A program made the translations under genes and the position numbers. This document shows positions 58,085 to 60,631 of a stretch of DNA of 64,000 nt, in pieces. Under the pieces are notes generated by a model. That model saw only the letters and a program-made list of their open reading frames with translations. It had not been told where the DNA came from and searched no databases. The stretch's first letter is position 1. The number at the start of each line of letters is the position of its first letter. Source of the DNA: Nordella sp. HKS 07 (GTDB taxonomy: Bacteria > Pseudomonadota > Alphaproteobacteria > Rhizobiales > Aestuariivirgaceae); contig NZ_CP049258.1 in the NCBI RefSeq assembly GCF_011046735.1, forward strand, positions 5,412,001 to 5,476,000, in the 5' to 3' direction.

Positions 58085-58169
58085 GCGGGCGTGGTGAAAT
58101 TGGCAGACACGCAGGATTTAGGTTCCTGTGGGGCAACCCGTGGGGGTTCAAGTCCCTCCGCCCGCACCA
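58085..58169 (+). tRNA. tRNA-Leu (UAG anticodon)
   Basis: A complete 85-base tRNA with acceptor GCGGGCG/CGCCCGC, D-arm AATTGGCAGA, anticodon stem CAGGA/TCCTG with loop TTTAGGT (anticodon TAG), a long class II variable arm, T-arm GGTTCAAGTCC and an encoded CCA end (58167-58169). The variable arm and loop identify leucine. Confidence 0.97.
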
Positions 58170-58250: not shown

Positions 58251-59855
58251 ATGCAGGTTACCGAAACGCTGAGCTCCGGTCTGAAGCGCGAATACAAGGT
58301 CGTCGTCGCCGCCTCGGAACTCGACACCGAACTCAATAAGCGGCTGAACGAACTCGCCGGCAAGGCCAATATCAAGGGCTTCCGCCCTGGCAAGGTCCCG
58401 GTGCCGCATTTGAAGCGCGTTTACGGCAAATCGGTCATGGCCGAGGTCGTCCAGAAGCAGGTCGACGATGCCAGCAAGAAGGTGCTCGAGCAGCATAATC
58501 TGAAGCCGGCCTATCAGCCGGAAGTGAAGCTGCCCGAGGACCAGGCGGAAGTGGATCGCATCTTCGACGGCAAGAGCGATCTCTCCTACACCATGTCGCT
58601 CGAAGTGATTCCGAGCTTCGAGCTCCAGGACACGACGGGGCTCACCCTCGATCGCCATGTGATCGACGTGACCGACACGCATATCGACGAAGCACTCGGC
58701 CGCATCGCCGCCCAGTACAAGGACTGGCAGGCCAAGGACGGCAAGGCCGAGAAGGGCGACCGGGTCACCATGTCCTTCGTCGGCAAGATCGACGGCACCG
58801 CCTTCGAAGGCGGCACCGCGGAGAACGTCCCGCTGGAAATCGGCTCCGGCCAGTTCATCCCCGGCTTCGAGGACCAGTTGACCGGCGCCAAGGCCGGCGA
58901 TGAGCTCGTCGTCAAGGTGACCTTCCCGGAATCCTATGGCGTGGCCAAGCTCGCCGGCAAGCCGGCCGAGTTCGACGTCAAGGTTGCGAGCGTCGAGGCT
59001 CCGAAGGAAGCGGTGGTCGACGACGAGTTCGCCAAGAAGCTCGGCCTCGAAAGCCTCGACAAGCTGAAGGACACAGTGCGCGAGCGCATGGGCCAGGAAT
59101 TCGGCCAGATGACCCGTCTGAAGCTGAAGCGCGACGTGCTCGACGCCCTCGACAAGACTTACAGCTTCGAGCTGCCTGAGCGGCTCGTCGAAGCCGAATT
59201 CAACGGCATCTGGAACGCGCTCAGCAATGAGATGCAGCGTTCGGGCAAGAGCTTCGCCGATGAAAACACCACAGAGGAAGAGGCGCGCAAGGAATACCGC
59301 GCCATCGCCGAGCGCCGCGTGCGCCTCGGCCTCGTTCTCGGCACGCTGGGCGAGAAGGAAGGCGTCAACGTCACCGACGAGGAACTGCAGCGCGCGCTCC
59401 TCGACCGTGCCCGCCAGTTCCCTGGCCAGGAGCGCAAGGTGTTCGACTATTACCGCAAGAACGCCAATGCGCTGCTCGAGCTGCGTGGGCCCATCTTCGA
59501 GCAGAAGGTCGTCGACCATATCGTGTCGAAGGCCACCGTGTCGGAAAAGAAGGTGACCCGCGAGGAGCTGCAGGCCCTGGTGCAGGACGAGGATGAGCAT
59601 GATCACGATCATGACCATCACGACCATGATCATCATGATCACGACCATCACGATCACGGCCATGATCATCATCACCATGATCACGATCATGCCCACGATC
59701 ACGATCATGCCCACGATCACGATCATGCCCACGATCACGATCATGCTCATGCCCACGATCACGATCATGCTCATGCTCATGAGGCAACCCCTGAGGCCAA
59801 GAAGGCCCCGGCCAAGAAGAAGGCTCCGGTCAAGAAGGCCAAGAAGGCGGAGTGA
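58251..59855 (+). CDS. tig: trigger factor with His/Asp-rich C-terminal tail
   Basis: A 534-residue ribosome-associated chaperone and prolyl isomerase. The ribosome-binding loop contains GFRPGKVP (about residue 44), the PPIase domain is about residues 155-245 (DRVTMSFVGKIDG, GSGQFIPGFEDQL), and the C-terminal arm follows. From residue 450 to 510 there is a 61-residue run made almost only of His, Asp and Ala (34 His, 19 Asp, 7 Ala and one Gly), then a Lys/Ala/Pro end. Normal trigger factors are about 430-450 residues, so the tail is an addition. ATG 58251 is preferred over the TTG at 58239. Confidence 0.96.
   Translation: MQVTETLSSGLKREYKVVVAASELDTELNKRLNELAGKANIKGFRPGKVPVPHLKRVYGKSVMAEVVQKQVDDASKKVLEQHNLKPAYQPEVKLPEDQAEVDRIFDGKSDLSYTMSLEVIPSFELQDTTGLTLDRHVIDVTDTHIDEALGRIAAQYKDWQAKDGKAEKGDRVTMSFVGKIDGTAFEGGTAENVPLEIGSGQFIPGFEDQLTGAKAGDELVVKVTFPESYGVAKLAGKPAEFDVKVASVEAPKEAVVDDEFAKKLGLESLDKLKDTVRERMGQEFGQMTRLKLKRDVLDALDKTYSFELPERLVEAEFNGIWNALSNEMQRSGKSFADENTTEEEARKEYRAIAERRVRLGLVLGTLGEKEGVNVTDEELQRALLDRARQFPGQERKVFDYYRKNANALLELRGPIFEQKVVDHIVSKATVSEKKVTREELQALVQDEDEHDHDHDHHDHDHHDHDHHDHGHDHHHHDHDHAHDHDHAHDHDHAHDHDHAHAHDHDHAHAHEATPEAKKAPAKKKAPVKKAKKAE
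59589..59783 (+). repeat. tandem 18-base repeats coding the His/Asp tail
   Basis: The unit CACGATCACGATCATGCC recurs with few changes about four times around 59676-59770, preceded by shorter CAT/CAC/GAT runs. This codes the His-Asp stretch of trigger factor. Such repeats are prone to expand or shrink in length. Confidence 0.9.
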
Positions 59856-59920: not shown

Positions 59921-60037
59921 CTAGATCACGATGAGTTTGGATTGAGTCAATCCAAACTCATAAACGTGATCGATTCCAATATTTGAGCGCGGGATTCTTG
60001 CGAAAAACCGGTACCCACTTTTTCGCATCCCGCGCTA
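59921..60037. repeat. composite palindromic repeat E7
   Basis: Unit A (59921-59972) has arms TGAGTTTGGATTGA/TCAATCCAAACTCA inside GATCACG/CGTGATC; unit B (59987-60037) runs GCGCGGGATTCTTGCG to CGCATCCCGCGCTA. On the minus strand its edge TAG is the stop codon of the histidine phosphatase gene. Confidence 0.88.
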
Positions 60038-60631
60038 ACGGGTGACCGGTCCGTCGATCGGCCGCCAGCCATGGAGCAGCTGTCTGCCCGCAACGGTGAA
60101 GGCGAAGAAATTTCCGCCGCCGGCGGGCTGGTCGGCGGCGCGGCTGATGGGGCGACCGCCTAGCGACAGAAGCAGGAGCGTACCGACGCCGCCATGGCCC
60201 ACAAAGGCGATGTCACCCTCGCTATGGCCGGCAAGAACCATATCGACCTCGCCGCGAATGCGCGTTTGCGCGTCGATCGCCCGCTCCCAGCCGCGAATGC
60301 TCGTTTCTGGATGAGCGAAGAACTGATCCGCGACGGCCTCGAATTCGGCCGGCGGCAGGAACCCCGTCGCCGATCTGTCGTTCTCGTGCATTCTTTCACG
60401 GATCTCCGGCGCGACGCCGATATGGGCGCCTAGGATTTCCGCCGTCTCGATGGCCTTCCTTTCGCCCGAGGAGACGATCCGTCTGACCGATCCGGCCCAA
60501 GGCTGACGGAGCATCCTTCGCGCCCGCTCGCGACCAAGCTCCGACAGGGCCCAGTCCGGCACAGGGACATCGGCATCGATGCGGACCTGTGGATGTGTGA
60601 TGTAATAAGCTCTAGCCGTGTCGCGGGTCAC
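60035..60631 (-). CDS. histidine phosphatase-family protein
   Basis: A 198-residue histidine phosphatase. The phospho-histidine motif, usually RHG, reads ITHPQV here, with Thr instead of Arg; the second histidine is in AFVGHGGVGTLLLLSLGG, so the core pair is kept. The GTG start (60631) overlaps the exoD-like stop (GTGA), which marks it as coupled. Whether it acts on small phosphates or proteins is unknown. Its stop codon comes from repeat E7. Confidence 0.83.
   Translation of the reverse strand: MTRDTARAYYITHPQVRIDADVPVPDWALSELGRERARRMLRQPWAGSVRRIVSSGERKAIETAEILGAHIGVAPEIRERMHENDRSATGFLPPAEFEAVADQFFAHPETSIRGWERAIDAQTRIRGEVDMVLAGHSEGDIAFVGHGGVGTLLLLSLGGRPISRAADQPAGGGNFFAFTVAGRQLLHGWRPIDGPVTR

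Follow-up and report, generated by a model that had tools for sequence, protein, structure and literature searches.

When and where newly made proteins gain metals, or avoid them, is in our judgement poorly known. His-rich tails on chaperones have been described; His and Asp are the residues that bind Ni, Zn, Co or Cu in such tails, and the C-terminal tail of SlyD is rich in Cys and His. For Helicobacter pylori, the accessible portion of one report states that SlyD binds nickel and that HspA (GroES) possesses a lineage-specific, His/Cys-rich C-terminal extension acting as a nickel sequestration domain (PMC7840056). Peptides of the mycobacterial GroEL1 tail, DKPAKAEDHDHHHGHAH, bind Cu(II), with Lys and Asp adding stability, according to the available part of a second report (PMC10170517), and excerpts of a third describe SecA, a factor that contacts the ribosome, as having a metal-binding end and a flexible linker at its C-terminus (PMC6620043).

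Here we examined a window of 64,000 nucleotides, the whole stretch of Nordella sp. HKS 07 DNA that was analysed, in which the trigger factor (Tig) ends in a long His/Asp-rich tail. Within the literature covered, mostly titles and opening abstracts with the majority of subscription journals outside its scope, no published His-rich tail on trigger factor and no metal-binding measurement on any trigger factor tail were found.

A complete trigger factor with a His/Asp-rich tail

Without its tail, the protein encoded by the window is an ordinary, complete trigger factor (Table 1). Its score against the whole-protein equivalog model TIGR00115 is 424.5 bits (cut-off 180.2), and the domains Trigger_N (residues 1-151), FKBP_C (164-245) and Trigger_C (268-425) follow one another, each above its cut-off. 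The best solved trigger factors align with residues 1-441, and AlphaFold2 returns block means of pLDDT between 84 and 95 over residues 1-440. Residues G43, F44, R45, G47, K48 and P50, invariant across 21 aligned trigger factors, belong to the motif GFRPGKVP, the ribosome-binding signature of trigger factor, which serves as its ribosome docking loop. The gene occurs once in a one-contig genome of 7,184,314 bases. Residues 447-534 fall below a pLDDT of 50 in the same model and are predicted to be disordered.

Table 1. Positions in the window of tig, the parts of its product and adjacent elements.
Feature	Position	Strand	Basis
tRNA-Leu, upstream of tig	58085-58169		located in window
tig, trigger factor, 534 aa + stop	58251..59855	+	ATG start, TGA stop; TIGR00115, Pfam domains, single copy
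Folded core: N domain, PPIase domain, C domain, residues 1-445	58251..59585	+	AlphaFold2 model
GFRPGKVP, ribosome-binding signature, residues 43-50	58377..58400	+	sequence; conserved in alignment
Acidic joint DEDE, residues 446-449	59586..59597	+	sequence; pLDDT <50 from residue 447
His/Asp-rich stretch, residues 450-510, imperfect tandem repeat DNA	59598..59780	+	composition, predicted disorder, third-position bias
Basic Lys/Ala/Pro end EATPEAKKAPAKKKAPVKKAKKAE, residues 511-534	59781..59852	+	sequence
Inverted repeat, core GTTTGGATTGAGTCAATCCAAAC	59924-59971		by eye
Dispersed intergenic repeat	59987-60051		genome copies

The initial annotation, made from the sequence of the window, had counted 34 His, 19 Asp and 7 Ala in the 61 positions of the His/Asp-rich stretch, followed by a basic end rich in Lys, Ala and Pro. 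Our recount agrees, with a single Gly, previously unmentioned, making up the remainder, and the basic end is present; residues 1-445 contain five His in all. The same annotation described the coding DNA as tandem 18-base units, which is correct in part. Tandem Repeats Finder reports a period of 18 over 59593-59782 (11.2 copies, 74% matches, 13% indels); the repeat is imperfect, periods of 6, 21, 24 and 51 are also reported within parts of this interval, and reading of the codons confines the clean 18-base unit, encoding HDHDHA, to the second half of the stretch. Codon usage was also found to differ between tail and body, the preference for Asp codons being reversed (GAT 17 and GAC 4 in the tail; GAT 6 and GAC 25 in the body), while both His codons are used in the tail.

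A search of the window genome with the tail alone returned tig and no second location, this search being insensitive since it overlooked a His-rich protein that a whole-protein search caught. The latter is a CbiX-like (sirohydrochlorin chelatase-like) protein, named by eye, with a dense His-rich C-terminal region (L094, 1260-2510, minus strand), and it has a counterpart in genome G054 (L095). As this was the single further His-rich match of the whole-protein search, no broader metal system associated with tig came to light in the genome.

Downstream of tig lie a gene of the histidine-phosphatase family, ExoD and CNNM/CBS/CorC_HlyC on the other strand, and then clpP. The CNNM/CBS cation transporter had been read as lending weight to a metal link. 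In a survey of 30 loci it stands beside tig in all four loci of the genus and in 0 of the 26 others, many of the latter being on short contigs. Five of these 26 loci (L014, L015, L016, L018 and L028) encode tails with four to six His, none with a CNNM gene in the available sequence, and in L015, L018 and L028 the sequence reaches clpP, such that CNNM is truly absent between tig and clpP. The CNNM neighbour would thus seem to mark the genus rather than the tail, and lends no independent support for metal.

Two repeat elements were also observed immediately downstream of tig. At least 40 genomic copies of the dispersed intergenic repeat match most of the query with 90-100% identity, a lower bound given that 40 of 135 candidates were scored; the repeat resembles the dispersed palindromic elements of rhizobia. 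The inverted repeat, situated between tig and the dispersed repeat, is possibly part of an element.

Distribution and history of the tail

The tail is carried by all five genomes of the window's genus, with 28-34 His over 47-61 residues and with His taking up over half the stretch in each of the five species. Measured from first to last His, its length is 61, 51, 50, 61 and 47 residues, bearing out between congeneric species the earlier expectation that length would vary. Over the trigger factor core, the window Tig shares 88% identity with that of Taklimakanibacter lacteus (L003), and L003 and L036, the latter from a genome of the window's genus, have equal identity to the window Tig and an equal tail. 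The window thus very probably belongs to Taklimakanibacter, which NCBI places in Hyphomicrobiales, Aestuariivirgaceae. Codon-aligned differences among the five tails amount to 34, 53 and 222 at first, second and third codon positions, respectively, summed over the 10 non-independent pairwise comparisons. Because these differences fall mostly at third positions, the amino acids of the tail are under selection. Furthermore, the 153 His codons of the genus tails are divided between 83 CAT and 70 CAC, and their other residues include one Arg codon (CGT) and zero Tyr codons; such a mixture of His codons, with almost no neighbouring Tyr or Arg codons, shows that the DNA drifted and the residues were kept. 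Repeat DNA accounts for the change in length, but not for the retention of His and Asp.

Comparison of tails across the order, as the initial annotation had proposed, showed that such a tail is not unique. With a tailed protein defined by a cut-off of our own choosing (at least four His in the tail), an even sample of the order contained 16 tailed genomes out of 65, distributed over 11 families. These range from short ends of the HDHDHDH type (e.g. families f16, f20, f25, f28 and f37) to 28 His (f5, L208), and the window tail, with its 34 His, is the richest among the tabulated tails. The remaining 49 genomes have fewer than four tail His, 45 of them none; since these manage without it, the tail is not essential in general. 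For the window's own family, 69 genomes were searched, 65 matched and 61 Tig ends were read, 19 of which have four or more tail His; the ends left out are that of L072, where from residue 411 the frame no longer follows the sequence of the family, and those of G005, G048 and G059, which are partial matches. In the large sister genus g2, most of the proteins stop after a few acidic residues, for instance EDEEEMASA. Two further sets of 20 loci gave 33 tailed proteins out of 40, which is not a rate, the loci having been picked mostly for matches extending beyond the core.

Among 68 ends from other orders of the class, the best-scoring of 128 matching genomes and not a random draw, His occurs in the tail of one and is absent from 67. 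The family of that single end, f57, shows His motifs in seven of eight further genomes selected for matching a tail-bearing query, and another f57 genome, G460, is without the motif. A scan of 299 genomes of the phylum, with the C-terminal end and tail as query, matched 28 genomes, of which only G600 and G700 (frames of 724 and 811 aa) lie outside the class; this query performs poorly with distantly related trigger factors, and missing matches there do not show absence. At least five Lys are present in 30 of the 68 tails from other orders, and several tails of the order end in His with no basic end, the length, position and flanks of the tail also varying. The frequency of His-free basic ends in the class makes it probable that the basic end predates the His part. 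Judged from these comparisons, a His-rich tail on trigger factor is a recurring feature of the order and not a single oddity.

Mapped onto a gene tree for 143 C-terminal domains, possession of a tail requires 20 changes by parsimony, a count raised by labelling rows with one to three His as 'none', and none of 500 label shuffles reached as few; at least six changes are forced by well-supported branches. The tree mixes even and chosen samples and was built from 168 columns by a quick method. One entry, L224, is tailed in the tree and is not among the 16 of 65, the counted region beginning two residues earlier there. On this tree, tails were gained or lost repeatedly within the order.

Tails of other families contain Cys as well as His, and every Cys-containing tail in the table of 265 entries (some genomes twice) also has His. 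Families f27, f47 and f57 have the tail motif HVHGPDCxH in common, and three more f57 tails carry its GPGC form; its recurrence possibly reflects convergence or an old metal site. Occurrences of HVHGP(D/G)CxH were recorded in L100, L113, L114, L255, L257, L266, L302, L304, L305 and L307, from three families. Within the window's family, genus g3 has a near-fixed His/Cys tail, HDHEHGE(D/E/S)CDHPDHDHG, ahead of the basic end in five of six tails (L070, L073-L075 and L077). His/Asp repeats are the usual make-up of many metal-binding loops, and were identified in two CobW-type GTPases, named by eye from sequence (L309 and L313). The His-rich loop of the L309 protein, HVHDEHCDHDHGHDH, is similar to HVHDEHCGHNH, the tail of the L057 trigger factor, and one CobW-type GTPase contains the closely similar HVHDEHCDHDH.

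Proposed metal binding and alternative explanations

The initial annotation had proposed a metal-binding tail. What stands of this is a real tail on a complete Tig, variable in length, composed of metal-type residues and under selection; what fails is the choice of nickel, the CNNM neighbour and the supposed uniqueness. The His/Cys motif of other families, together with selection on the residues, points to metal, making metal binding the likely interpretation of the tail on sequence grounds.

Storage or delivery of nickel, in the manner of SlyD, HypB or UreE, would have Tig assuming the role of SlyD in urease or hydrogenase maturation. SlyD and trigger factor have an FKBP-type PPIase domain in common, UreE is present in the window genome, and trigger factor is the only FKBP_C match in each of the five genus genomes (one of them 87% complete), so that no SlyD was found for such a job in the genus. 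A His-rich end is also absent from four SlyD-like proteins of the order (L288-L291, named by eye; the order sample gave seven short, incomplete matches to FKBP_C, of which these are four), which fits with the tail sitting on trigger factor instead, this association being weak. However, of the 16 tailed genomes in the order sample 9 have UreE, against 35 of the 49 untailed ones (Fisher p = 0.36), and the other 7 tailed genomes are without any UreE match; as judged by UreE in these 65 genomes, no genomic link of the tail to a metal enzyme or its maturation was found. Since the presence of UreE is unrelated to the tail, urease nickel does not appear to be the driver, and we regard the nickel explanation as fairly improbable. 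We also considered, and set aside, a link between the tail and Tig being the sole FKBP protein: it holds in the five genus genomes, and in the order sample an extra FKBP protein occurs in 1 of 16 tailed versus 15 of 49 untailed genomes, a difference which is not significant (Fisher p = 0.09, relatedness uncorrected). The window genome's own UreE has a short His end only, AHHGHEH.

The tail might instead act through charge, as a pH-responsive polyampholyte which, strongly acidic through Asp near neutral pH and turned positive at its His residues on acidification, would, along with the basic end, adjust the affinity of the protein for the ribosome, its solubility or its condensation. The ratio of nearly two His per Asp beside a basic end, the predicted disorder and the frequency in the class of basic ends without His all agree with this account, but it leaves the Cys-containing motif of other families unexplained and is, in our estimation, unlikely. 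A functionless tail, expanded passively through CAY-GAY slippage at a tolerant protein end, would be in keeping with the tandem-repeat DNA, with the differences in length between species and with Asp codon usage opposite to that of the body. This explanation seems very unlikely given the dominance of third codon positions among the differences, a His content above half in all five species and the repeated appearance of tails in distant families; slippage of a His-Asp repeat is, moreover, not expected to yield HVHGPDCxH. Repeated DNA is prone to misassembly, and the initial annotation had named an assembly or annotation artefact as one of the results that would overturn it. The frame is nevertheless open through the tail in the five genus genomes and in many other families, and the window comes from a single-contig genome. 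Relatives with open tail frames refute such an artefact, the exact repeat number aside, and we find it scarcely credible; as all five genus genomes carry a similar tail, the tail is neither a product of chance nor of assembly.

We therefore favour, with slightly more than an even chance of being right, a normal trigger factor to which an intrinsically disordered, metal-binding tail has been added, buffering metal near newly made proteins. Alternating His and Asp would bind several divalent or Cu(I/II) ions with moderate affinity and fast exchange. Because trigger factor is an abundant protein that repeatedly binds and leaves ribosomes, its tail could buffer metal in the vicinity of nascent proteins, keeping free Cu, Zn, Ni or Co from capture by Cys and His of unfolded chains and perhaps passing metal on to proteins that require one. 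The basic end, more widespread in the class, probably helps to keep the tail near rRNA. Copper or zinc buffering would be our first guess, because of the precedents. In this regard, loss of trigger factor or DnaK leaves E. coli highly sensitive to copper, and Cu+ causes aggregation of proteins rich in Cys and His, as stated in the available part of one report (PMC9040851); the sensitivity of cells lacking trigger factor would therefore provide a selective reason for a metal sink on this chaperone.

A further-reaching and tentative proposal, which we think rather less likely to be right than wrong, is that in Hyphomicrobiales and one further family of the class trigger factor repeatedly became a ribosome-tethered metal buffer for nascent chains at the exit port. 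The His/Asp tail, in some cases His/Cys, would there determine how much metal nascent chains meet, shield unfolded Cys and His from the wrong metals and load metal during folding and, if this is true, metal quality control would start during translation. Metal-binding tails on the first chaperone met by nascent chains would bring metal control to the ribosome. Close relatives with and without the tail, as in the window's family, provide natural test sets. A native tailed trigger factor would also be expected to stick to nickel columns, and would be a likely contaminant of protein purifications from these bacteria.

Comparison with described chaperone tails

Like the window Tig, SlyD is a chaperone of the FKBP PPIase family whose C-terminal tail is rich in His and disordered, in the window Tig by prediction. 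SlyD is small, has two domains and carries an insert-in-flap domain without Trigger_N or Trigger_C, whereas the window Tig has three domains, including these two, and so differs from SlyD in domain constitution. Set against the Cys/His-rich, disordered tail of SlyD, that of the window Tig is His-rich and predicted to be disordered, and is without Cys.

The accessible portion of the GroEL1 report describes a C-terminus that, as in the window Tig, joins Lys/Pro/Ala and Asp/His-rich segments. GroEL1 is an unrelated chaperone, with a His/Asp part of about 10 residues as opposed to 61, and its Lys/Pro/Ala segment precedes the His part, whereas that of the window Tig follows it. HspA, in the available text of its source, is likewise a chaperone with a His-rich C-terminal extension; it is unrelated to trigger factor, contains Cys and is linked to nickel, unlike the window tail, which has neither Cys nor a nickel association. 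SecA, from the excerpts of its report, is similar in being a ribosome-contacting factor for new proteins with a C-terminal tail, and offers a precedent for a metal-binding end, although this end is a small defined metal-binding domain and that of the window Tig a His/Asp repeat. A Lys/Ala/Pro basic end like that of the window Tig also occurs on trigger factors elsewhere in the Alphaproteobacteria (at least five Lys in 30 of the 68 ends from other orders), 67 of these 68 having no tail His. Considered alongside SlyD, HspA and GroEL1, the window Tig is a chaperone of the same general kind, possessing a His-dense, predicted disordered and lineage-restricted C-terminal extension.
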